In this document: in pieces, positions 230-37,856 of the stretch
Position numbering within the stretch: the stretch's first letter is position 1
How the letters are laid out: each line of letters begins with the position of its first letter
Origin: Acidimicrobiaceae bacterium
Lineage (GTDB): Bacteria; Actinomycetota; Acidimicrobiia; Acidimicrobiales; Aldehydirespiratoraceae
Length of the DNA stretch: 37,952 nt
Reading direction: 5' to 3'
Assembly (NCBI GenBank): GCA_009835735.1
Contig: VXWX01000166.1
Location: forward strand, 1-37,952
Translations under genes and position numbers: made by a program
The notes under the pieces: model-generated
What the model was told of the DNA's origin: nothing
What the model saw: only the letters and a program-made list of their open reading frames with translations
Database searches by the model: none

Positions 230-574
230 CTACTCCGGAGCGTCGGGGCCTCGCTTGGCGGGGAGTTCCAGGAAGATCCGGCCGTCACGCACTTCCAGCG
301 AGTAGCGGGGCTGGTAGCGCTCCCTGGCCGTGCAGTAGCCGGTGGTGACCTCGTAGGCCCACTGGTGGCCGGCGCACACCAGCCGGGTGCCCAGCATCAC
401 GCCCTCGTTGAGCTTGCGGCCCCGGTGGATGCACACGTTGGACAGGGCCACCGGCTCGCCGTCGTTCCACAGCAGCAGGATCTCGTGGCGGTGCAGGTGC
501 ACGACGAGCTTGCCTGCCTCGGCCAGCCCCTCGGAGGTGGCCTCCACTTCGAACCATCCCTTGGGTGCCGCCAT
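230..574 (-). CDS. Rieske-type [2Fe-2S] ferredoxin
   Basis: A 114-residue soluble single-domain Rieske protein that would pass single electrons to an oxygenase. The cluster motif is complete: C48-x-H50 in NVCIHRG and C67-x2-H70 in VCAGHQW, 16 residues apart, the two Cys/two His arrangement of Rieske ferredoxins. The domain fills the protein (about residues 6-105) with no catalytic iron domain attached, so it is a carrier and not the alpha subunit of a ring-hydroxylating dioxygenase. It follows the 2Fe-2S gene by 28 bases and the diiron-oxygenase gene lies upstream on the same strand, so all three are likely co-transcribed. The small subunit of a nitrite reductase (NirD-like) is the main alternative, but no partner is nearby. 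The ATG at 574 has only a weak ribosome site. Confidence 0.85.
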   Translation of the reverse strand: MAAPKGWFEVEATSEGLAEAGKLVVHLHRHEILLLWNDGEPVALSNVCIHRGRKLNEGVMLGTRLVCAGHQWAYEVTTGYCTARERYQPRYSLEVRDGRIFLELPAKRGPDAPE

Positions 575-602
575 GGCTCAGCCGTCCAGCCCGTCCCCAA
601 GC

Positions 603-956
603 TCAGCCGGTGCCGGCCCAGCCCGTGCGGGACCCGCCGGCGCCGCCGGGTTCGTCGTCGAGTCCCACCTGGTCGGGATCCCAACTGAAGGTCACGTCGC
701 CGCGGGTGTAGGTCTGGCAGGCCAGGCGGTAGCCCTCGTCCACCAGCTCGCCCAGCCGGGCCCGCTCGCGCCGCCGGGGCGGGTCGAGGTTCTCGGCCCC
801 CTCCTCGACCACCAGCCGGTCGGTGCCGCAGTTGCCGCTGGCGCACTGCCACGGCACGTCGATGTCCTCCCGGATGGCCATCCGGAGCACGTTGACCTCT
901 TCGCCCTCGGCGAACTCCACGTACTGGTCGGCCGTCTTGAAGTGGATGCGCGGCAC
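603..956 (-). CDS. Plant-type [2Fe-2S] ferredoxin-like protein with Asp at the third ligand position
   Basis: A 117-residue protein with the beta-grasp ferredoxin layout. The usual cluster motif is C-x4-C-x2-C followed about 30 residues later by C. Here C38, C43 and C80 are present, but the third position is D46 (QCASGNCGTDRL). The DNA reads clearly as GAC at 821-819. Either Asp serves as an oxygen ligand or the cluster is altered. The C-terminal 20 residues are Gly-rich and probably disordered. The start is a GTG at 956, lying 44 bases after the diiron gene, and the Rieske gene follows 28 bases later. The order suggests that this protein and the Rieske protein form an electron chain for the diiron enzyme. 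No dedicated reductase is visible in the window. Confidence 0.75.
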   Translation of the reverse strand: MPRIHFKTADQYVEFAEGEEVNVLRMAIREDIDVPWQCASGNCGTDRLVVEEGAENLDPPRRRERARLGELVDEGYRLACQTYTRGDVTFSWDPDQVGLDDEPGGAGGSRTGWAGTG

Positions 957-1000
957 GCGGACCTACAACCTCGACGGCACCGCCGCCAGCCGGTAGCGGG

Positions 1001-1750
1001 TCAGCCGACGAGCGCGGGCTCGCGCTCGTCTTCCTCGACCCACGGGCCGAGGTCGGGCAGCACGTAGGTCTCGTACAGCGCCTTGGTGTAGGCGAAGCGC
1101 ATGTCGGCCGCCTCCCGCACGTAGTGCAGGCAGCGCTGCTGCAGCTCGGGCGTGTCGGCGTACTTGAGCACGATCTGGTAGCCCCGCTCGCCGTGGATCT
1201 CGTCGGAGGTGATGTGCAGGTCGAAGAACTCCGCCTCCCACTCCGAGAACCCGTACTTGTTGATCAGGGTGGGGTACTGGGTCCGGTAGATCGACGGCAC
1301 CTGTGACTCCAGGCCGACGATCAGCGCGGCCGACGACACCACGAAGTTCTCCCGGCCCGACACGTAGTACATCCAGCCCTGCATGCCCTTGGCGAAGGGC
1401 ATGGCGTTGTCGCGGTTCTGCACGTATTCCCGGGTGCCCCCGCACGCCTCGGCGAAGCGGATCAGCAGGTCGGTGTGGCGGTCGTCGCTCAGCTCCTCCT
1501 CGTACATGTTCTGCAGCAGGAAGTCCTTGGCGTCGCGGGCGTGGTCGGGCGTGTTGGCGTACATGAGGCCGAGGTAGTCGCCGAACGGGCCGATGTAGTG
1601 GTAGTGGTTGGTGGCCCAGTGGACGAAGTGCTGCTTGTGGAGCTTGCCCGTGGCCCAGGCGCGGCTGAAGGACGCGTCCTTGGCCATGGTGCCCGAAAAG
1701 GCCTGCTCCAGGGCCACTCTGAACTCGCTCGATGACATCAATTCGGCCAT
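1001..1750 (-). CDS. Heme-oxygenase-like diiron oxygenase/oxidase (HDO; PqqC/CADD-like fold)
   Basis: A 249-residue all-helical protein of the TENA/PqqC/CADD fold. All six ligands expected for the non-heme diiron subgroup can be placed: E85-x6-H92, E148, then H179-x3-D183-x2-H186 (in DLHITSDEIHGERG). The spacing closely matches that of CADD-type enzymes, so this is a metal oxygenase or oxidase and not cofactor-free PqqC. HDO enzymes cleave C-C or C-N bonds, N-oxygenate amines or desaturate fatty acids; the substrate here cannot be read. The ATG at 1750 has a clear AGGAG site 6-7 bases upstream. It is the first gene of a minus-strand set with a 2Fe-2S protein, a Rieske protein and a possible racemase-fold enzyme, which suggests an enzymatic electron supply. 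No pqqA, B, D or E genes are present. Confidence 0.8.
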   Translation of the reverse strand: MAELMSSSEFRVALEQAFSGTMAKDASFSRAWATGKLHKQHFVHWATNHYHYIGPFGDYLGLMYANTPDHARDAKDFLLQNMYEEELSDDRHTDLLIRFAEACGGTREYVQNRDNAMPFAKGMQGWMYYVSGRENFVVSSAALIVGLESQVPSIYRTQYPTLINKYGFSEWEAEFFDLHITSDEIHGERGYQIVLKYADTPELQQRCLHYVREAADMRFAYTKALYETYVLPDLGPWVEEDEREPALVG

Positions 1751-1821: not shown

Positions 1822-1922
1822 GGCGCCGGGGAGACATCACATCCCCGGCGCCTATCGATGATGATCGGTGACTGTCATTGCGATTGAAGGGCGCCGGGGA
1901 GAGGTCGGAATCCCCGGCGCCC
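1822..1922. promoter_or_regulatory. Two tandem strong hairpins in a divergent promoter region
   Basis: Two near-identical inverted repeats lie 67 bases apart between the divergent starts at 1750 and 2001. The first has perfect 10-bp arms (GGCGCCGGGG at 1822-1831 and its complement at 1843-1852) with an 11-base loop. The second has perfect 11-bp arms (1889-1899 and 1912-1922) with a 12-base loop. Both loops start with AGA and end with AT. The second lies just upstream of the likely -10 box of the hydrolase operon. The position argues for paired operators or transcript-boundary structures; a repetitive extragenic element is an alternative. Confidence 0.7.
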
Positions 1923-1931
1923 GCAACTGTA

Positions 1932-1937
1932 TACACT
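1932..1937 (+). promoter_or_regulatory. Probable -10 box of the hydrolase operon
   Basis: TACACT within an AT-rich patch matches the actinobacterial TANNNT form. It lies 10 bases after the second hairpin and about 63 bases before the GTG start at 2001. No convincing -35 box is seen. Confidence 0.4.
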
Positions 1938-2000: not shown

Positions 2001-2969
2001 GTGCACGAGACCGAGGTGGCCTTCTTCAGTGAAGGCGAGAGGCTGAGCGGCCTGCTGCGTTCGCCGGACGAGGTCTCGGGTCCGGTCCCGGCCATCGTCC
2101 AGGGGCCGGGCTGGCTCGGGCTCAAGGACGCCAAGCTCTACCTGCCCTACCACGAGGCCCTAACCGCGGCCGGCTTTCACGTGCTGATATTCGACTACCG
2201 CGGTTTCGGCGATTCCGGAGGCGACCGGGGGATGCTGCTGCCTCAGCTCCAGCTCGAGGACCTCATCAACGCGGTCACCTACCTGTGCACCCGCGACGAC
2301 GTGGACTCCGACAACATCGGCGTGTTCGGAAGCGGCGGCACCGGGGGCGGCAACGCCGTGCTGCTGGCCGCGGCCGACCGCCGGGTGCGGGCCGCGGTGT
2401 CGCAGGTGCCGGTGGCCGACGGCGAGGACTGGCTGCGCCGGATGCGCCGCGAGTATGAGTGGTACGAGTTCCTGGACCGTCTCGAAGCTGATCGCAACCG
2501 GCGGGTGCTGACCGGCGAGGGCGAGATGGTCCATCCCCGGGAGGACATCATGGTCCCGACCCCGGAGCGGCGGGCCTCGAAGGTGAAGGCAGACGTGGAC
2601 GACCGGATCCCGTCGTCGGTGCCGCTGCGCTGCGCCGAGGCGATCATGGACTACCGGCCGATCGACGTGGTCCACAGGGTGGCCCCGGCCGCGCTGATGA
2701 TCATCGCGGTGGCCGACGACGCCACCACCCCCACCGACCACGCCGAGCGGCTCTACGAGCGGGCCGGCGCCCCCAAGAAGCTGGTCATGCAGCGCCACAC
2801 CACCCACTACGCGGCCTACAAGCAGTACGGCGACGCGGTGATCCCCCAGATGGTGGACTGGTATCGCACTCATTTCACCGGCGGCTCGGTGGAGGTGCAC
2901 CAGAGTTCGCCGTCTGAGCCGTCCGAGCTGCTGGTCAAGGACCCCGACGGCGCGGCCGCGACCGGCTAG
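2001..2969 (+). CDS. Alpha/beta hydrolase with an atypical nucleophile elbow
   Basis: A 322-residue alpha/beta-hydrolase. I chose the GTG at 2001, with a GGGGGG ribosome site about 6 bases upstream; the open frame extends further 5' into the hairpin region without support. The fold is visible: IVQGPGW (oxyanion strand), FDYRGFGDSGG, the elbow after DNIGVF, an acid-site candidate in VADDATTPTDH and a histidine in THYAAYKQYG. The elbow reads G110-S-G-G-T-G, so where relatives of the YcjY/acetyl-xylan-esterase type carry the nucleophilic Ser (GSSYSGG), this protein has Gly112; Ser111 is one position early. It may be inactive, use another nucleophile or be a lyase-like relative. It leads a plus-strand run with an amidohydrolase and a luciferase-like enzyme, so a role in the same degradative route is likely. 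Confidence 0.75.
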   Translation: MHETEVAFFSEGERLSGLLRSPDEVSGPVPAIVQGPGWLGLKDAKLYLPYHEALTAAGFHVLIFDYRGFGDSGGDRGMLLPQLQLEDLINAVTYLCTRDDVDSDNIGVFGSGGTGGGNAVLLAAADRRVRAAVSQVPVADGEDWLRRMRREYEWYEFLDRLEADRNRRVLTGEGEMVHPREDIMVPTPERRASKVKADVDDRIPSSVPLRCAEAIMDYRPIDVVHRVAPAALMIIAVADDATTPTDHAERLYERAGAPKKLVMQRHTTHYAAYKQYGDAVIPQMVDWYRTHFTGGSVEVHQSSPSEPSELLVKDPDGAAATG

Positions 2970-3002: not shown

Positions 3003-3038
3003 ATGAGTGTGACCTTGCTGATGAGTGCGCGCCGATGA
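3003..3038 (+). CDS. Possible 11-codon leader ORF coupled to the amidohydrolase
   Basis: The ATG at 3003 follows AAGGA with suitable spacing, and its frame (MSVTLLMSARR) ends at a TGA that overlaps the amidohydrolase ATG at 3035 (ATGA). The amidohydrolase start has no ribosome site of its own, so translation could be handed over by termination-reinitiation. The local sequence contains a short tandem duplication of ATGAGTGCGC (3021 and 3035), so the leader could be a by-product of that duplication. Confidence 0.3.
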   Translation: MSVTLLMSARR

Positions 3039-4423
3039 GTGCGCCGAAGATCGATCGGATCGTGACCGGCGGCACTGTCGTGTCCGGCTCGGGCACCGAG
3101 CAGGCCGACGTGCTGATCGCGGGCGAGCAGATAGCGGCGATCGCCGCCCACGACGTGATCCCGCTGCCCGATTCCGTCGAGCGCATCGACGCCACCGGCA
3201 AGTGGGTGCTGCCCGGCATGGTCGACGTGCACGTCCATCTGCGCGAGCCCGGCTATGTCCACAAGGAGGACATCAGCACCTGCACCTCGGCGGCCGCGGC
3301 CGGCGGGGTGACCACCGTGTTCGGGATGCCCAACCTCAACCCGGTCACCAAGAACCTGCAGGTGCTCGAGGAGCTGTTCGACCTCTACGACACCAAGAGC
3401 ATCGTCGACTGGAACCACAACCCGGTGCCCAGCGTGCTCGGTGAGGTCAAGCCCATGGCCGACGCCGGGGTGGCCGCCTTCAAGATCTACATGGTGGTCG
3501 ACACCGGCCGCGACTACCCCCATCCCTCGGGCACCGGCATCCACGACCACGGCCATCTGCTGCGCATGTTCGAGGCCATCAACCCCACCGGGCTGCCGTT
3601 CATGATCCACCCCCACGACCAGGCCATCATGGACGTGACCGAGCAGACCCATTGGGACCGGGGCGACCGCAGCCCGGCCGCCTACGCCCAGACCCTGGCC
3701 ACCCACAACGGGCTGATCTGGGACGCCGCCATCGCGGTGATCCTGCAGATGGCCGAGGCCACCGGCACCAAGCTCCACATCGTGCACATGCAGACCGAGG
3801 GCTCGGTGGAGCTGGTGCGGCGGGCCAAGGAGCGGGGCGTGCCGGTGAGCTGCGAGGTCAACCACTGGGCGCTGTTCCTGTCGCGGTGGCGCGACATCGA
3901 GGAGCTTGGCCCCTACGCCCTGTCGTACTGGGTGCCCGACCACCACCGCGAGGCGGTGTGGGAGGCCCTCAACGACGGCACCATCGACATGCTCTCGTCG
4001 GACCACGCCCCCCACACCCGGGCCGAGAAGGAGATCGGCTGGGAGGACTGCTGGGCCTGCCACACCGGCACCCCCGGCGTCCAGGAGCAGTACCCCATGC
4101 TGCTGGACTGCTCGATGGACGGGATGATCTCGCTGCCCCGGGTGGCCGAGGTGGTGGCCGAGGAGCCGGCCACCGAGTTCAAGCTGCCCTCCAAGGGGTT
4201 CCTGCGACCCGGCTACGACGCCGACATCGTGATCTTCGACCCGGCCGACCAGACCCGCCACTCGGCCGACACCGTGCTGTCGAAGTGCGGCTGGACCGCC
4301 TATGACGGCCGGATCACCAAGGGCCGCATCCATCGCACCCTCGTGCGGGGACGCGACGTGTACGTGGACCGCAAGGTGGTGGGCGAGCCCGGCTGGGGCT
4401 GCCTCGCCCGCCCCACGCTGTGA
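3035..4423 (+). CDS. Dihydropyrimidinase/allantoinase/hydantoinase-like amidohydrolase
   Basis: A 462-residue cyclic amidohydrolase that would hydrolyse a ring amide or imide (hydantoin, dihydropyrimidine, allantoin or similar) with two metals. The metal ligands are visible: H66 and H68 in VDVHVHLREPG, the carboxylated lysine K150 in AAFKIYMV, histidines in MIHPHDQ (192-194) and LHIVHMQ (248-251), and the catalytic D323 in SSDHAPH. HLREPG is typical of the dihydroorotase/allantoinase branch, but the extra length and the lack of pyrimidine genes argue against dihydroorotase. The start may be coupled to an 11-codon leader ORF. It is followed 27 bases later by a luciferase-like oxidoreductase. 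The pair recalls ring oxidation plus ring opening of N-heterocycles; the exact substrate is not readable. Confidence 0.85.
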   Translation: MSAPKIDRIVTGGTVVSGSGTEQADVLIAGEQIAAIAAHDVIPLPDSVERIDATGKWVLPGMVDVHVHLREPGYVHKEDISTCTSAAAAGGVTTVFGMPNLNPVTKNLQVLEELFDLYDTKSIVDWNHNPVPSVLGEVKPMADAGVAAFKIYMVVDTGRDYPHPSGTGIHDHGHLLRMFEAINPTGLPFMIHPHDQAIMDVTEQTHWDRGDRSPAAYAQTLATHNGLIWDAAIAVILQMAEATGTKLHIVHMQTEGSVELVRRAKERGVPVSCEVNHWALFLSRWRDIEELGPYALSYWVPDHHREAVWEALNDGTIDMLSSDHAPHTRAEKEIGWEDCWACHTGTPGVQEQYPMLLDCSMDGMISLPRVAEVVAEEPATEFKLPSKGFLRPGYDADIVIFDPADQTRHSADTVLSKCGWTAYDGRITKGRIHRTLVRGRDVYVDRKVVGEPGWGCLARPTL

Positions 4424-4450
4424 GTTCGTGAGGTCTTTGAGGAGGGCGTG

Positions 4451-5446
4451 ATGACTGATACCTCGGCCATGCAGTTCGGTCTGCTGATGCCCCATTTCGG
4501 CGGCCATGCCAGCCGCCGGGCCGTGCTCGACGGGGCCGTGCTGGCCGAGAGCTTCGGCTTCGACTCGCTGTGGGTGCGCGACCACCTGGTGTTCGAGCCC
4601 CACTCCGAGATGGAGGCGGCCGACATCACCTTCTACGAGGCCCTGACCACCCTCACCGCCATCGGCGCGGTCACCGAGAGCATCACGCTGGGAACGGGGT
4701 CGCTGATCCCGTTCCGCCATCCGGTCCACACCGCCATCAGCGTGGGGACGTTGTGCAGCCTGGTCGGCGACCGGGTGGTGTTGGGCTTCGGGGCGGGGAC
4801 CTTCGACCATGAGTTCGATGTGATCGACATGGCCGGGGTGGATCGTGTGGGGCTGGTGCGGTCCAATGCTGAGATCCTGCGCCGCCTGCTGGCGGAGGAC
4901 GGCGTCACCTACCGCGACGACGTGTACTCGTTCGAGAACATCTCCATCGAGCCCAAGCCGGGGGCGCCGGTGCCGTTCTGGTACTGCGGGGCCACTCCTC
5001 GCTCGGCTCGCTTGGCCGCCGAGTACTGCGACGGCTGGATGCCGGGACGAACCACGCTGCTCACCATCGAGGAGCGGGTGGCCACCATGCGGGAGATGAC
5101 CGCGGCCAGCGGCCGGCCCATGCCCACGGTGGCGGTGATCCCGCCCACGTCGATCGCGGCCACCCATGATCTGGCGTTGTCCGGCGTGAACCTGGAGGGC
5201 CTGCTGGCGTGGGCCAACCTGCGGGGCAAGTGGTGGGCCAAGCCCCCGTCGGGCCAGTTCGCCACCGCTGAGGACATCGAGGGCTCGTTGATCGCGGGCA
5301 CCCCCGACGAGGTGGTCGAGCAGGTGGGCCGTTTCGCCGAGGTGGGGGTGGAGCACCTGGTGTTCGACCTGCGCATGAATTTCGACCGCTGGTTCGCCTC
5401 GGTCGAGCTCCTCGGCCGCGAGGTCCTCCCCGCCCTACGAGCCTGA
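4451..5446 (+). CDS. LLM-class (luciferase-like, probably F420/flavin) oxidoreductase
   Basis: A 331-residue TIM-barrel protein of the bacterial luciferase-like family. Recognisable blocks are FGLLMPHFGG at the start, FGFDSLWVRDHL, LGTGSLIPFRHPVHTA, GFGAGTFDHEFD, PFWYCGATPRSARLAAEYCDGWMP and the C-terminal GTPDEVVEQVGRFAEVGVEHLVF. These fit the F420-dependent type common in actinobacteria, though FMN-dependent monooxygenases share them. GTG 4448 and ATG 4451 are adjacent in-frame starts; I prefer ATG because GGAGG at 4441-4445 is spaced well for it. It is the third gene of the hydrolase/amidohydrolase run and could oxygenate or reduce a ring intermediate. It is distinct from the second family member at 17203. 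Confidence 0.85.
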   Translation: MTDTSAMQFGLLMPHFGGHASRRAVLDGAVLAESFGFDSLWVRDHLVFEPHSEMEAADITFYEALTTLTAIGAVTESITLGTGSLIPFRHPVHTAISVGTLCSLVGDRVVLGFGAGTFDHEFDVIDMAGVDRVGLVRSNAEILRRLLAEDGVTYRDDVYSFENISIEPKPGAPVPFWYCGATPRSARLAAEYCDGWMPGRTTLLTIEERVATMREMTAASGRPMPTVAVIPPTSIAATHDLALSGVNLEGLLAWANLRGKWWAKPPSGQFATAEDIEGSLIAGTPDEVVEQVGRFAEVGVEHLVFDLRMNFDRWFASVELLGREVLPALRA

Positions 5447-6237: not shown

Positions 6238-6714
6238 GTGAAGGAAGTAGTTGACCGGGAGTTCGTGGTTGAGGCGGCGCGTGGCGACGTTTGGCCCCGG
6301 CTGCTGGATGTTCATGCGGTGGCTTCGTGGCTGCCGATCATGCACTCGGTTACCGAGGTGTCGCCGGGCGCTGACAGCATCGACGGCTCCAGTTTCCAGG
6401 CGGCCTTCGAGGACAAGGTGGGCCCGTTCTCGCTGCGGGCAGACCTGCACATCGAGGTGGCCGGCGTGCGGGAGCCTGAGGAGGTGTCGATCCGGGCTCG
6501 GGGCGAGGACCGCCAGATCCGCTCCCGCATCATGATCGACGCCGCGGCCCGCCTGTCCGACGCCGGTCCCGGCCAGACCCGGGTCCAACTGGTCGGCTCC
6601 TACGAGATCACCGGCCGGGTGGCCACCCTCGGCGCCGGCATCATCCGCTCCAAGGCTGCCAAGCTCATCGACACCTTCTGCACCAACGCCGCCGCCGGTC
6701 TCTCGGGCACCTGA
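6238..6714 (+). CDS. SRPBCC / CoxG-like protein
   Basis: A 158-residue START/Bet v1-like (SRPBCC) protein similar to carbon-monoxide-dehydrogenase subunit G. The typical opening strand (REFVVEAARGDVWPRLLDVHAVASWLPIM) and the closing helix (about 125-155) with GRVATLGAGIIRSKAAK are present. CoxG-like proteins commonly accompany molybdenum hydroxylase operons and may act in maturation, membrane recruitment or substrate handling. That fits here: the FAD subunit of such an enzyme starts 58 bases downstream. The GTG at 6238 is the only sensible start, but it has no clear ribosome site. Confidence 0.8.
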   Translation: MKEVVDREFVVEAARGDVWPRLLDVHAVASWLPIMHSVTEVSPGADSIDGSSFQAAFEDKVGPFSLRADLHIEVAGVREPEEVSIRARGEDRQIRSRIMIDAAARLSDAGPGQTRVQLVGSYEITGRVATLGAGIIRSKAAKLIDTFCTNAAAGLSGT

Positions 6715-6772
6715 CGGGAGTCGCTCCCGTAGAAGTAGGCCACGCAGCCTGCTCTCCACAAGGATTGGGCTG

Positions 6773-7564
6773 ATGGCTGTACTGCCTGAGCTTGGGTTGG
6801 TCCGCTCCGGGGACTTGGACGACGTGCTGGCCGCGGTCGACTACGACCATGCGCCCTTCGCCGGCGGCACGGAACTGGTGCCGGCCATGGAGCTGGGTCT
6901 GCGCCGGCCGGCTGCGATCGTGGACCTCAAGCGGGTCGAGGCCTTGAAGGGGATCGAGGTCGATGCCGAGGCCGGCACTGTGACCATCGGGGCGGCCGTC
7001 ACTCACCGGCGGCTGTCGGACCACGCCGGCGTGCGTGAGCACCTGCCCACGCTGGCCGCGGCAGCATCGCGGGTGGGCAACGCCCGGGTGCGCTCCACCG
7101 GCACCGTGGGCGGCAACCTCTGCTTCGCCGAACCCCGCTCCGATCTGGGCTGTGTGCTGCTGGCCCTTGGCGCGACGGCTGAGGTCCGCTCCGCCCACGG
7201 TGCCCGCACCCTCGGCATCGACGAACTGATCGTGGGGGCGTTCGAGACCTCGCTCGAGCCCGACGAGATCCTCGCCACGGTGACCGTGCCCTTCGAGCCG
7301 CCGGGCATGTCGTACTGGAAGCTCCAGAGCTACGAGCGACCCACCCTGGGGGTGGCCCTGGTGGTCACGGAGGACCGGTGGGAGATCACCGTGGGCGCGG
7401 CCACCGAGCGTCCCACCCGCATCGTGCTCGCTGCGGGCGACACCGCCGGGCTGGCGGACTTCGTCGGCGGGCTGGAGTTCAGCGATGACATGACCGGCCC
7501 GCCCGACTACAAGCGATCGGTGCTGCGGGCCTACCTCCAACGGACTCTGGGAGCGGAGCTGTGA
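6773..7564 (+). CDS. Molybdenum hydroxylase FAD-binding subunit (CoxM-like)
   Basis: The 263-residue medium subunit of a xanthine-dehydrogenase/CO-dehydrogenase-family hydroxylase. It carries electrons from the 2Fe-2S subunit to an acceptor through FAD. Family landmarks are FAGGTELVPAM near residue 31, then GAAVTHRRLSDH, and the FAD pyrophosphate-binding block RVGNARVRSTGTVGGNLCFAEPRSD (about 98-122). It ends with the small C-terminal CO_deh_flav_C domain. A good AAGGA site lies 8 bases before ATG 6773. The stop overlaps the start of the 2Fe-2S gene by 4 bases, so subunit synthesis is coupled. Confidence 0.92.
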   Translation: MAVLPELGLVRSGDLDDVLAAVDYDHAPFAGGTELVPAMELGLRRPAAIVDLKRVEALKGIEVDAEAGTVTIGAAVTHRRLSDHAGVREHLPTLAAAASRVGNARVRSTGTVGGNLCFAEPRSDLGCVLLALGATAEVRSAHGARTLGIDELIVGAFETSLEPDEILATVTVPFEPPGMSYWKLQSYERPTLGVALVVTEDRWEITVGAATERPTRIVLAAGDTAGLADFVGGLEFSDDMTGPPDYKRSVLRAYLQRTLGAEL

Positions 7565-8052
7565 CCGCCCCGGCCCCCACCTCGACCGTGGTCCGGTGCC
7601 GCATCAACGGCCGGGACGTCGAGATGCTGGTGCCGGTGCGGCTCACCGTGGCAGAACTGCTGCGGGACCGCCTCGGGCTCACCGGCACCAAGGTCAGCTG
7701 CGAGATGCAGGTGTGCGGGGTGTGCACCGTGCTGGTGGATGGCAACCCGGTCAGCTCCTGCGCCACCCTGGCCTGCGACCTCGACGGCACCGAGGTGCTA
7801 ACCGTCGAGGGCCTGGCCCGGGGTCGGAACCTGCACCCGGTACAGGAGGCCTTCATGGACGCCAACGCCTTGCAGTGCGGCTTCTGTACACCCGGGTTCA
7901 TCATGATGGCCGTCGCCCTGCTGGACGCCCATCCCGACGCTGACCAGGCCGAAGTGAGGGAGTGGATGGACGGCAACCTGTGCCGCTGCACCGGCTACGC
8001 CCCCATCGAGACCGCGGTCACGGTGGCGGCCTCCCGAATGGACGCCCAGTGA
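7561..8052 (+). CDS. Molybdenum hydroxylase 2Fe-2S subunit (CoxS-like)
   Basis: The 163-residue small subunit carrying two [2Fe-2S] clusters. The N-terminal plant-type site is C47, C52, C55 and C67; the C-terminal helical site is C106, C109, C141 and C143 (QCGFCTPG and NLCRCTGY). All eight cysteines of the family are present, so electron transfer from the Mo centre to FAD should be intact. The GTG start at 7561 overlaps the FAD-subunit stop, and its own TGA overlaps the GTG of the large subunit at 8049, giving a tightly coupled M-S-L operon. Confidence 0.95.
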   Translation: MTAPAPTSTVVRCRINGRDVEMLVPVRLTVAELLRDRLGLTGTKVSCEMQVCGVCTVLVDGNPVSSCATLACDLDGTEVLTVEGLARGRNLHPVQEAFMDANALQCGFCTPGFIMMAVALLDAHPDADQAEVREWMDGNLCRCTGYAPIETAVTVAASRMDAQ

Positions 8053-10502
8053 CCAGCCCTCGGAGCGACGCTTGGGAGAAGGTCACCGGCCGGGCCCGCT
8101 ACGCCGTCGACGCGGTCCTCCCGAATATGGCCCACGCCGCGGTGGTCCGCTCCGAGCGGGCCCACGCCTACCTCACCGGCATCGACCGGGCTGAGGCCGA
8201 GGCGGCTCCGGGGGTGATCGCGGTGGTGACCGCCGAGGATCTCGGCGACCTGGGCCGCCGTTTCGGCCACATCGTGCCCGACCACGCCATCCTGGCCGTC
8301 GACAAGGTCCGCTACTACGGCGAGCCGGTGGCGGTGGTGGTGGCCGAGACCCCGCACCAGGCCGCCGACGCCGCCGAGCTGGTGTGGGTCGACTACGACG
8401 ACCTGCCCGCCCTCACCGACGCGGTCACGGCCCTCGCCTCCGACGTTCTCATCCACGAGCAGTCCTACGTCGAGCCGGGCCAGAAGTTCCTGGATGTGGC
8501 TCCGGCCGCCTCCACTGACAACATCGCCCACCGCAACGAGTTGGCCTGGGGCGACGCCGAGGCCGCCCTGGCCGCCGCCGCCACTGTGGTGGAGACCACG
8601 ACGACCTTCCCCCTCGTCTACGGCTACGCCATGGAGACCTACAACGCGCTGGCCGACTGGCAGCCGGGCTCCCTGCACGTGGTGTCCACCGCCCAGCATC
8701 CGCTGATGGTGCGCAGGGAGCTGGCCCGGATGTTCTCGCTGCCGCTGGCCGCGGTGCGTGTGGAGGTGCCCTACATCGGCGGCGGCTACGGCTCGAAGTC
8801 GTACACGAAGCTGGAGCCCCTGGCCGCGGCGGCGTCGTGGGCCGCGGGCCGGCCGGTCAAGGTCACCACCGACGTCGAGGCGGCCATGTACACCACCAGG
8901 GCCGACGGTGCGCTGGTGACGGTGCGCACCGGCTTCGACGCCGATGCCCGGATCTGTGCCCGCGACATCGACATCCGTTTCGACACCGGCGCCTACGCCG
9001 ACAACAGCCCGCTGGTGCTCACCAAGAGCATCAACCGCAGCTTCGGCCCCTACCGGATTCCCAACCTGCGGGTCCGGGGCGTGGCTGCCTACACCAACAC
9101 CTCCCCGGCGTCGTCGTACCGGGGCTTCGGCGCCCCCCAGGCCGCCCTGGCCGGGGAGCTCAACATGGACATGGCCGCCGACCGGCTGGGCATCGATCCG
9201 GTCGAGTTGCGCCGCCGCAACCTGCTGGCCCCCGGCGACACCATCATCGACGGCAAGCGCCCTCTCGACGCCGACCTGGCCGCCGACCTCGATGCCATCG
9301 TGTTCGCTCTCGACCAGCACGCCTTCGAACGGGATGCCGCTGTTCAAGCCGGTGGCGACCAGCACGCCGCTGACCAGCACGACGCCGTCGATGTGGGCAT
9401 CCGCCGTGGCCGGGCCGTGGCTGTGACCGCCAGCGACGCCGGGGCCTCGCCCATCTCTACCGCCCAGGTGCGCATGCACGCCGACGGGTCGGTCACCCTG
9501 CTGGTGAGCAGCACCGAGATGGGTCAGGGCAGCCGCACCGCCCTGGCCCAGATCGCGGCCCGGGAACTGTGCGTGTCGATCGAGGCGGTGGCCGTCGGGC
9601 AGAGCGACACCCGCTTCACCCCGTTCGAGTGGACCACCGGCGCCAGCCGCACCACCACCGTGGTCGGCCTGGCCGTCCAGGCCGCCTGCGCCGACCTGTG
9701 GGACAACCTGCGAGTCAAGGCCGCCGAGTCGGCAGGCGTCCCCGTCGACGACGTGGTCGTTCACGGCGGTCGCGTCCACCTCGCCGCTGAGGTCTCCAAC
9801 ACCGTGAGCGGCTTGGGTGCAGGCGGCGACGTCGTGGGCGAGCACGGGACTGGTTTGGGGGCTGGCGCTGCGGGCGCCCTCGGCGCAGGCGAGCGGGGGA
9901 CGGGTGCGGCTGACGCTGCTCCGGTGGTGAAGGACTCCGGCTCCGGCCTGACGCCGGCCGAGGTGATCCGGCAGTGGTTCGGTGCCGACGCCGGCGAGGT
10001 GGTGGGCGTGGGCGTGGTCCGCCGCGACGGCGCCACCGCGGTCCTGCCCCCGTTCTGGGAGATCGGCGCGGTGGGGGTGGAGGTGTCGGTGGACGTAGCC
10101 ACCGGCGAGGTGACCGTCGAGCATCTGGTCACCGTGGGCGACGTGGGCCATGCGGTGAACCCGGACCTGGTGAAGGGCCAGGACCTGGGCGCGGCCACCC
10201 AGGGTCTGGGCATCGCCCTGTGGGAGGAGATGGTCTACGACGGCGAGCAGCTCACCAACCCCAACCTGGTCGAGTACCGGGTGCCCCGCCTGCGCGACAC
10301 TCCCCGCCGCATCACGTCGGTGCTGGCCGAGCGGGGTGACGGGGCCGGCCCCTACGGCGCCAAGGGCGCCGGCGAGGGCGCCCTCAACCCGGTCCCGGCC
10401 GCGGTGGCCGCCGCAGTGGGCCGGGCCGTGGGCGTCTGGCCGACCGAGCTGCCGCTGACCCCGCCCAGGGTCTGGTCGCTCCTCCAGCAGGCCCAGCAAT
10501 AG
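8049..10502 (+). CDS. Molybdenum hydroxylase large (Mo-cofactor) subunit, xanthine-dehydrogenase family
   Basis: An 817-residue catalytic subunit that hydroxylates a substrate carbon with water. The start is the GTG at 8049 overlapping the previous stop; the frame stays open upstream but without family similarity. The N-terminal domain begins AWEKVTGRARYAVDA, and Mo-site blocks include GGGYGSKSYTKLEP, SYRGFGAPQ (near 356), TEMGQGSRTALAQI and the catalytic-Glu loop GAKGAGEGALNP (near 770). SYRGFG differs from the AYRCSFR loop with the Mo/Cu-bridging Cys of true CO dehydrogenase, so the substrate is more likely an N-heterocycle or aldehyde. An unusual Gly/Ala-rich insert of about 50 residues (about 578-629, bases 9780-9935) interrupts the second half. 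Accessory genes for cofactor sulfuration are not seen here. Confidence 0.92.
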   Translation: MTSPRSDAWEKVTGRARYAVDAVLPNMAHAAVVRSERAHAYLTGIDRAEAEAAPGVIAVVTAEDLGDLGRRFGHIVPDHAILAVDKVRYYGEPVAVVVAETPHQAADAAELVWVDYDDLPALTDAVTALASDVLIHEQSYVEPGQKFLDVAPAASTDNIAHRNELAWGDAEAALAAAATVVETTTTFPLVYGYAMETYNALADWQPGSLHVVSTAQHPLMVRRELARMFSLPLAAVRVEVPYIGGGYGSKSYTKLEPLAAAASWAAGRPVKVTTDVEAAMYTTRADGALVTVRTGFDADARICARDIDIRFDTGAYADNSPLVLTKSINRSFGPYRIPNLRVRGVAAYTNTSPASSYRGFGAPQAALAGELNMDMAADRLGIDPVELRRRNLLAPGDTIIDGKRPLDADLAADLDAIVFALDQHAFERDAAVQAGGDQHAADQHDAVDVGIRRGRAVAVTASDAGASPISTAQVRMHADGSVTLLVSSTEMGQGSRTALAQIAARELCVSIEAVAVGQSDTRFTPFEWTTGASRTTTVVGLAVQAACADLWDNLRVKAAESAGVPVDDVVVHGGRVHLAAEVSNTVSGLGAGGDVVGEHGTGLGAGAAGALGAGERGTGAADAAPVVKDSGSGLTPAEVIRQWFGADAGEVVGVGVVRRDGATAVLPPFWEIGAVGVEVSVDVATGEVTVEHLVTVGDVGHAVNPDLVKGQDLGAATQGLGIALWEEMVYDGEQLTNPNLVEYRVPRLRDTPRRITSVLAERGDGAGPYGAKGAGEGALNPVPAAVAAAVGRAVGVWPTELPLTPPRVWSLLQQAQQ

Positions 10503-18674: not shown

Positions 18675-18745
18675 AGCGGATGACGAGAATCGAACTCGCA
18701 TTCTCAGCTTGGGAAGCTGATGTTCTACCATTGAACTACACCCGC
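18675..18745 (-). tRNA. tRNA-Gly (CCC)
   Basis: Read on the minus strand, the acceptor arms GCGGGTG and CATCCGC pair fully (one G-T). The D arm GTTC-AATGGTA-GAAC, the anticodon stem TCAGC/GCTGA with loop TTCCCAA and the T arm GCGAG-TTCGATT-CTCGT are all intact. The anticodon is CCC, so it reads GGG. The CCA end is not encoded. Confidence 0.95.
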
Positions 18746-35248: not shown

Positions 35249-37243
<1,995 letters not shown>

Positions 37244-37268
37244 CCGTTCGCAAGCCGCCCCACAATTT

Positions 37269-37311
37269 CTCGGGTGGGTTTTGTGGATAGAGCACCCATA
37301 AACAACCCGAG
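37269..37311. repeat. 43-bp palindromic intergenic element, copy 6
   Basis: AATTTCTCGGGTGGGTTTT and AACAACCCGAGAT form the arms, with TTGTGGAT after the left arm as in copy 3. It lies between two tandem plus-strand genes, 21 bases before the next GTG start. Confidence 0.8.
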
Positions 37312-37331
37312 ATCTTGAGGACGGGCTGGAC

Positions 37332-37856
37332 GTGACGAGCACACCGGATAACTGGTACTTCCGCGACGGCGGGGCGCCGGCCGGCGGGCCGCTGGTGATC
37401 TTGGACCTCGACGGCATCATCTCGGACGCCACCCACCGCCAGCACTACCTGCGGGGAGCCTTCAAGGACTTCCGGGGCTTCTTCACCGCCGCGCCCGACG
37501 ACCCGCCGTACGAGTCCGGCCTGGCCCTGGCCGCCTCGGTCGCCGACGACCACACGGTCGCCATCCTCACCGCCCGCCCGCACTACATGGCCGACGACAC
37601 CCGCAGCTGGCTGGCCGCCAACGATGTCCGCCACGACCTGCTGATCCTCCGCCCGGAGCACGGCCGGGGCTCGAGGGGCCCGTCGGCCGACTTCAAACGC
37701 CACGAGCTGAGCCGCCTGCGGTCCGCCGGCTACGAGATAACCGCGGCCATCGACGACGACGAGCGGATCATAGAGATGTACCGCTCCGAGGGCGTCTTCG
37801 CCCTATACGTCCACTCCGGCTACTACGAGCGAGACGACGCGGCGAGGACCATTTAG
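37332..37856 (+). CDS. HAD-superfamily phosphatase-like protein
   Basis: A 174-residue HAD hydrolase. Motif I is ILDLDGIISD with nucleophile D25 and acid D27, motif II is in AILTARP, and the acidic motif IV is AAIDDDERI. The small cap and the histidine-rich segment after motif I (ATHRQHYL) recall polynucleotide 3'-phosphatase-like and related HAD groups, but the exact family is unclear. The GTG at 37332 has no strong ribosome site. It follows acs after an 88-base gap occupied by a palindromic element, so it may have its own transcript. Confidence 0.72.
   Translation: MTSTPDNWYFRDGGAPAGGPLVILDLDGIISDATHRQHYLRGAFKDFRGFFTAAPDDPPYESGLALAASVADDHTVAILTARPHYMADDTRSWLAANDVRHDLLILRPEHGRGSRGPSADFKRHELSRLRSAGYEITAAIDDDERIIEMYRSEGVFALYVHSGYYERDDAARTI

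Follow-up and report, generated by a model that had tools for sequence, protein, structure and literature searches.

The window, a stretch of 37,952 nucleotides that forms one contig of a 167-contig genome, encodes a heme-oxygenase-like diiron oxidase/oxygenase (HDO), a Fer2-type ferredoxin and a Rieske ferredoxin on the same strand (Table 1). This arrangement raises the question whether the HDO is the oxygen-activating part of a multicomponent system that is supplied with electrons by carriers of its own. In the direction of transcription, the HDO gene is followed by the Fer2 gene, the Rieske gene and an arylmalonate-decarboxylase-like gene truncated by the contig end, with gaps of 44 bp, 28 bp and about 70 bp, respectively. 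In relatives, this last gene is complete and precedes a gene for an FrhB/FdhB-like F420 flavo-iron-sulfur protein. The representative in the genus relative L030, encoded two genes 3' of the Rieske gene, is a candidate for the electron source.

Table 1. Coordinates of the features discussed; positions refer to the window unless a locus (L) is named.
Feature	Position	Strand	Basis or context
Start of arylmalonate-decarboxylase gene (Asp/Glu racemase superfamily), cut by contig end	1..160	minus	complete in relatives
Stand-alone Rieske ferredoxin, CIH...CAGH, 114 aa	230..574	minus	Pfam, motif
Fer2 [2Fe-2S] ferredoxin, Asp for third cluster Cys (CASGNCGTD...C)	603..956	minus	Pfam, alignment
HDO, 249 aa	1001..1750	minus	Pfam, six 3H/3C ligands, AlphaFold2
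Second perfect palindrome, same arms as hairpin, other loop	1821..1852		degenerate or absent in genus relatives
Leader hairpin GGGCGCCGGGGATTCCGACCTCTCCCCGGCGCCC	1889..1922	minus	once per genome upstream of HDO in genus
TGTATACA, probable regulator site common to HDO loci	1928..1935		pattern search
Alpha/beta hydrolase, UilS-like, below equivalog cut-off	2001..2969	plus, divergent from HDO	family search
Cyclic amidohydrolase (dihydroorotase/allantoinase/hydantoinase type) and LLM oxidoreductase	3035..5446	plus	family search
CoxG-like protein and three-subunit Mo hydroxylase	6238-10502		beside cyclic amidohydrolase
XDH-type Mo hydroxylase	6773-10502
tRNA gene	18675-18745	minus	sole Rfam match above gathering score in window
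P450	21509-23029
Acyl-CoA-synthetase-like/HAD (PNKP-like) pair	35249-37856		about 35 kb from trio
Same pair, f24 locus	L054 15951-18999		near trio
Same pair	L041 4711-7202		near trio, by reading
Same pair	L042 5374-7970		near trio, by reading
FrhB/FdhB-like protein	L030 10453-11646		genus relative
116-aa protein	L050 14078-14428		between two ferredoxin genes
Second HDO, 34% identical	L059 9054-9728		window's genome, contig C70
FAD reductase fused to C-terminal Rieske (Pyr_redox_2, Reductase_C, Rieske)	L065 7323-8885		beside HDO and Rieske ferredoxin

The HDO and its two iron-sulfur proteins

The HDO matches PF14518 above the Pfam cut-off (7.7e-32). The complete 3His/3carboxylate set proposed in the earlier note (E85, H92, E148, H179, D183 and H186) is present at these positions and shows no substitution when the window's sequence is aligned with 13 relatives, the most distant of them 33% identical. 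Since Glu84 and Glu86 are likewise invariant in this alignment, it is uncertain which of the three consecutive glutamates acts as ligand. An AlphaFold2 model based on the 14-row alignment reached a pLDDT of 92.1 and displays the helical fold of heme oxygenases, which excludes a hydroxylase of the bacterial multicomponent monooxygenases, for which a ferritin-like fold is required.

Comparison of the model with the PDB using Foldseek revealed CtCADD as the best match (TM 0.79/0.91), followed by PqqC and, further down, UndA, HrmI, BesC and FlcD. By sequence, too, pABA synthases, such as CADD and NePabS, and PqqC are the closest relatives with a solved structure. This proximity would suggest that the HDO is a self-sacrificing pABA synthase of the CADD type or a PqqC-type cofactor enzyme. 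According to the accessible part of the CADD report, however, Tyr27 is the residue sacrificed and Lys152 the amine donor (PMC11965152), and these align with Ser29 and Gln158 of the HDO. Moreover, TIGR04305 scores 82.7 bits (cut-off 200) and the NCBIfam equivalog for PqqC 40.2 bits (cut-off 240), and the genes around the HDO appear catabolic, with no folate or PQQ genes recognised alongside. Despite the similarity in fold and sequence, either function is thus considered extremely improbable.

Both small proteins downstream contain the domains that had been predicted for them. In the Rieske protein, the domain match lies above the Pfam cut-off (8.3e-13) and the CXH...CXXH motif is found in a small protein without further parts, confirming a stand-alone Rieske ferredoxin encoded on the HDO strand. 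The Fer2 protein comprises 117 residues when counted from the GTG start that aligns with relatives, and its Fer2 domain is detected with 5.3e-8 and 33.1 bits (cut-off 21). Its earlier description as a plant-type 2Fe-2S protein encoded behind the HDO on the same strand holds for domain and location. However, the cluster motif reads CX4CX2D...C instead of CX4CX2C...C, and a full plant-type ferredoxin with four cluster cysteines can be dismissed. The aspartate occupies the third cluster position without exception in the 19 distinct copies read from Actinobacteria (HDO loci of families f1, f7 and f24) and is therefore not a sequencing error; Burkholderiales homologues of the Fer2 protein carry four cysteines. 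An aspartate at the third ligand position of a [2Fe-2S] site is also present in SdhB of E. coli succinate dehydrogenase. In contrast to the Fer2 protein, which is a small stand-alone ferredoxin, this site is situated in a domain of a respiratory complex. A stand-alone ferredoxin with a conserved aspartate at a ligand position is of interest by itself.

Distribution of the HDO and exchange of its electron chains

The close relatives of the window's genome among the contigs searched are metagenome-assembled genomes of Acidimicrobiia, one of them named Candidatus Aldehydirespirator. Within the window's family, 17 of 51 genomes gave HDO matches (E 1e-10), 16 of them with this HDO (one cut by a contig end); in the genome G005, which is 87% complete, a paralog of 34% identity stands alone among the HDO matches. 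At order level, the HDO was detected in 10 of 347 genomes (E 1e-20), with an identity of at least 65% in eight and of about 51% in two. The class-level search gave 8 of 395 genomes and the phylum-wide search 2 of 396 with no further lineage, the samples of family, order, class and phylum being overlapping. Outside this phylum, sampling of Burkholderiales consisted of plasmid records: six of the 72,556 searched encode the HDO at 63-65% identity (two of Caballeronia, four of Cupriavidus), and two more match at 25% and are annotated as PqqC. A contig scan yielded 15 loci with an HDO of 90-100% identity, largely from the same genomes as the family search.

The Fer2 protein follows this distribution closely. 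Among the candidates scored, it is present in 8 of 347 order genomes (E 1e-8), which are exactly the eight with an HDO of at least 65% identity. If the genomes are taken as independent, two identical sets of eight arise by chance with a probability of 2e-16; this value is an indication only, as the genomes are related (three families, four genera) and candidates were partly scored in a few of them. The pairing of HDO and Fer2 protein nevertheless exceeds chance.

Alternatively, the iron-sulfur proteins might be expressed from the HDO promoter but act for another enzyme of the pathway, with a Mo hydroxylase, a P450, a Rieske dioxygenase and the FrhB-like protein as candidates. The window indeed encodes an XDH-type Mo hydroxylase and a P450, and in Caballeronia a Rieske dioxygenase located 10 kb from the HDO could share the ferredoxins. 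However, the Mo hydroxylase has a Fer2 subunit of its own, and no Mo hydroxylase gene is among the genes shared with the stretches of families f7 and f24, in which the motif scan shows no further Rieske protein. Together with the Fer2 gene adjoining the HDO gene in each of the eight genomes, this renders such a detour of the carriers unlikely.

Conservation of the gene order extends beyond the window, and the carriers are best regarded as probable partners of the HDO. In the window's family, 15 loci were scanned, and the Fer2 gene follows the HDO gene in all 14 with a full HDO. The Rieske gene is present in 13 of the 14; in L037 its place is taken by a run of N. Some relatives are less compact: in L043, the Rieske gene lies about 800 bp from the Fer2 gene. 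Furthermore, the HDO clade comprises five actinobacterial loci at a greater distance, of which four (G056, G999, G124 and G190), which belong to two other families and encode an HDO of 65-71% identity, contain the trio in the same order and on the same strand. Adjacency of the three genes is thus kept in the genus of the window and in two families besides, a finding that the earlier note had named as support, whereas scattered homologues would have spoken against a common system. Gene calls at some loci originate from a rough GC3 script that sometimes gave wrong-strand ORFs; the conclusions on these loci rest on similarity and Pfam matches rather than on the calls.

The fifth locus (G871) belongs to another order. 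Here, the genes after the HDO encode a Rieske ferredoxin and an FAD reductase that is itself fused to a C-terminal Rieske domain, and no Fer2 motif is found in the 13.6 kb read. A third arrangement is observed in all six Burkholderiales records, in which two Fer2 ferredoxins and an FNR-type reductase (domains Fer2, FAD_binding_6 and NAD_binding_1) are encoded less than 5 kb from the HDO, with no stand-alone Rieske protein in the three loci that were motif-scanned. These records represent about four distinct loci, two pairs resembling copies of one locus each, and in EM10 (L077) the FNR match falls into two pieces and the gene may be broken. Within the stretches read, no carrier is therefore universal, and the clade HDO is accompanied by three different chains: the Asp-ferredoxin with the Rieske ferredoxin, the Rieske ferredoxin with the Rieske-fused FAD reductase, and two ferredoxins with the FNR-type reductase. 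A 116-aa protein without Pfam match, encoded between the two ferredoxin genes of L050, is kept in the Burkholderiales loci and is a possible effector or assembly protein.

Beyond the clade, neither Fer2 nor Rieske motifs were found within about 9 kb around the HDO of about 51% identity in G219 and G277 (19 kb read), or within about 9 kb around the 34% paralog at the two loci examined of 13 found. With carrier motifs seen at clade loci and not at these relatives, the pairing is ascribed to a single HDO clade. A reductase beside the trio was not recognised among the family-scanned ORFs of the f7 and f24 loci, nor was an FAD/NAD(P)H 2Fe-2S reductase adjoining the trio in the window. In the HDO tree, branching within the clade is mostly unresolved and the fork of the clade has a support of 85/96, which is not strong. 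Due to this, we do not claim that the HDO moved from Acidimicrobiia to Burkholderiales or the other way.

HDO clusters are often labile, as stated in the accessible part of a review (PMC13108848), and the carriers could accordingly load or protect the diiron site during assembly or reductive activation without taking part in turnover. This role appears highly unlikely, since in other lineages the carriers are exchanged for complete reductase chains, which is a better fit to electron supply. Electron supply to the HDO is favoured because a missing carrier is replaced by another chain with its own reductase. Judged from these gene arrangements, the partners of the clade HDO look exchangeable, and retention of the HDO while carriers are swapped in distant bacteria suggests a modular oxygenase system.

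Neighbouring genes, promoter site and leader hairpin

In clade members of other families, the HDO gene is accompanied by genes for an aldehyde dehydrogenase (ALDH), an HbpS-like protein and a GntR regulator, which are present at all five actinobacterial clade loci and in all six Burkholderiales records, and its role is therefore probably catabolic. An OCD-type imine reductase is encoded at three of these five actinobacterial loci and in all six Burkholderiales records, while a GGT-like hydrolase (3/5), an SDR (4/5) and a related MFS transporter (3/5) recur at the actinobacterial ones. GGT-like genes, named by eye with no family search, are also located near the trio in the genus loci L033 and L037. 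In the window's family, ALDH and HbpS genes do not adjoin the trio; they are present elsewhere in eight of eight genomes, with ALDHs that are only about 40% identical. In NCBIfam, the ALDH comes closest to alpha-ketoglutaric semialdehyde and dioxovalerate dehydrogenases, with scores below cut-off. Because of the ALDH-, OCD-, GGT- and SDR-type neighbours, the substrate is probably a small, nitrogen-containing compound, and conservation of the ALDH hints at an aldehyde product. Routes via homarine, a gamma-glutamylated amine or an N-heterocycle were weighed from the ALDH, OCD, GGT and amidohydrolase neighbours, and literature searches settled none of them.

In the window, a divergent run of genes starts 250 bp from the HDO with the alpha/beta hydrolase, the cyclic amidohydrolase and the LLM oxidoreductase. 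Loci of the window's family have the latter two next to the trio, whereas in f7, f24 and f65 loci they are absent there. Next come genes for a CoxG-like protein and for a Mo hydroxylase of the xanthine dehydrogenase type with three subunits, and this group, together with the cyclic amidohydrolase, looks like a cluster for N-heterocycle degradation. The window further contains a tRNA gene and, distant from the trio, a pair of genes for an acyl-CoA-synthetase-like and a HAD (PNKP-like) protein, which is also located near the trio at an f24 locus and at L041 and L042.

A promoter element is common to the clade. Each of the 11 clade loci tested has GTATAC in the 250 bp upstream of the HDO, compared with none of four other loci; elsewhere in the clade loci, 0 to 10% of 250-base windows contain it. 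In the window, this element is part of the site TGTATACA, which occurs six times in the window's genome against five times for the reversed control, so that the total is not enriched. One copy is the HDO promoter site, three are located on contig C70 and the others on C134 and C147. On C70, a second HDO is encoded between two ALDH genes in a cluster with a GntR/FCD regulator, GGT, isochorismatase, a family-5 solute-binding protein and an amidohydrolase. The first of the C70 sites lies about 60 bp before the ALDH gene preceding the second HDO, taking its ATG as start; the others are situated before the gene for the family-5 solute-binding protein and near glyoxalase-like and aspartyl-protease-like genes. 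Because TGTATACA stands both at the HDO promoter and at three places on C70, one regulon spanning two HDOs is plausible, and the C70 cluster is possibly a sister pathway within it. FCD regulators may favour palindromes of this kind, for which the literature search gave no confirmation, and control of the HDO locus by a GntR/FCD regulator that recognises TGTATACA is probable.

Between TGTATACA and the HDO start, the leader contains a predicted hairpin, GGGCGCCGGGGATTCCGACCTCTCCCCGGCGCCC. Of 16 genomes of the genus, 15 carry its 20-base core, each as a single copy on the strand of the HDO and at most 250 bp upstream of it; the sixteenth, G005, has neither the core nor this HDO. Across the 15 genus loci, pairwise identity is 99.2% in the hairpin, loop included, compared to 62% in other intergenic columns. 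In L042 a C-to-T change in the stem is paired with a G-to-A change, and in the sister genus (G016, locus L043) the hairpin is absent. The strict palindrome pattern is found in the genome only in the two leader copies listed in Table 1, and the lowest-energy fold of the whole leader (folding z -5.05) pairs these two with each other. No Rfam family scored above its gathering threshold on the leader, and the matches below it belong to unrelated families. The hairpin could be an operator or an RNA element. A leader peptide is less likely; one reading frame runs through the stretch uninterrupted, and by inspection both L042 changes are synonymous there as well as compensatory in the stem.

Proposed electron flow and relation to known systems

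From the observed gene content, ligands, gene order, conservation, co-occurrence, chain replacement and shared promoter site, we infer a pathway including electron transfer and its direction, chemistry, substrate and regulator. A reduced nucleotide, NAD(P)H or F420H2, would give electrons to a flavoprotein, from which they would pass through the Asp-type Fer2 ferredoxin and the Rieske ferredoxin, in either order, to the diiron site of the HDO. The Fe(III)2 form would thereby be reduced to Fe(II)2, and O2 binding to the latter may yield a peroxo-diferric species as oxidant of the substrate, a small organic molecule that probably contains nitrogen. Its oxidation product would be handled by the aldehyde dehydrogenase and, in several lineages, also by the OCD-type imine reductase, the GGT-type amide hydrolase and the SDR, and the pathway would probably be controlled by the GntR/FCD regulator at TGTATACA. 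That the HDO is in this way the oxygen-activating component of an electron-fed multicomponent oxygenase in a catabolic pathway, with carriers and regulator as proposed, is considered likely. The earlier reading of an HDO with a two-carrier system is in line with this, supported by conservation of the trio and by substitute chains with a reductase of their own.

A compatible variant is that the HDO acts as an oxidase, desaturase or C-C/C-N cleaving enzyme to which the carriers supply extra electrons, comparable to the reductase MboB described below. According to the accessible parts of two articles, characterised HDOs mostly desaturate, cleave or N-oxygenate (PMC13108848, PMC13185094), and the conserved ALDH would fit an aldehyde product. 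No specific point speaks against this variant, which sequence cannot separate from a monooxygenase, and it is tentatively retained, short of being the expected outcome.

The closest precedent is the MboA/MboB pair of mangotoxin biosynthesis, described in 2026. In the accessible part of that report, MboB is an NAD(P)H-flavin-2Fe2S reductase needed for the second step of the HDO MboA, the pair is presented as possibly the first characterised dedicated pair of HDO and redox partner, and other HDOs are run with chemical reductants or mediators (PMC13185094). MboB is also named as redox partner in the accessible text of the HDO review (PMC13108848), and MboA/MboB is the sole characterised pair of this kind that was found. 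MboA has the same 3H/3C ligand set as the HDO of the window, and its gene is likewise linked to that of a redox partner, in its case one required for full turnover. However, the partner of MboA is a single fused reductase encoded in a biosynthetic operon, whereas the trio comprises two separate carriers and is probably catabolic. The layout of the trio had not been recognised as described in the earlier note: a publication joining an HDO with Rieske and ferredoxin partners was indeed not found, a weak negative since subscription journals were mostly outside the coverage, but a dedicated HDO partner as such has its precedent in MboA/MboB.

In its logic the trio resembles toluene 4-monooxygenase, in which, according to the accessible part of the structural report, the Rieske ferredoxin T4moC docks on the diiron hydroxylase T4moH (PMC4200526). 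Both systems combine a Rieske ferredoxin, the putative donor in the trio, with a diiron O2 enzyme. In contrast to toluene 4-monooxygenase, which consists of a bacterial multicomponent monooxygenase hydroxylase with the effector T4moD, the trio is built on a heme-oxygenase-like scaffold, and no effector-like gene was seen among the proteins scanned from the HDO loci. As stated in the accessible part of the review, HDOs studied so far need no effector protein (PMC13108848). The wider proposal, that one HDO clade represents a true multicomponent oxygenase with at least three electron chains, following toluene-monooxygenase logic and provided with a catabolic regulon and, in the genus, a leader hairpin, is somewhat favoured.

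A clade with its own carriers and reductases offers a route to test how the HDO scaffold is fed with electrons. Moreover, while the accessible part of the HDO review deals mainly with biosynthesis (PMC13108848), this clade points to HDOs in catabolism.
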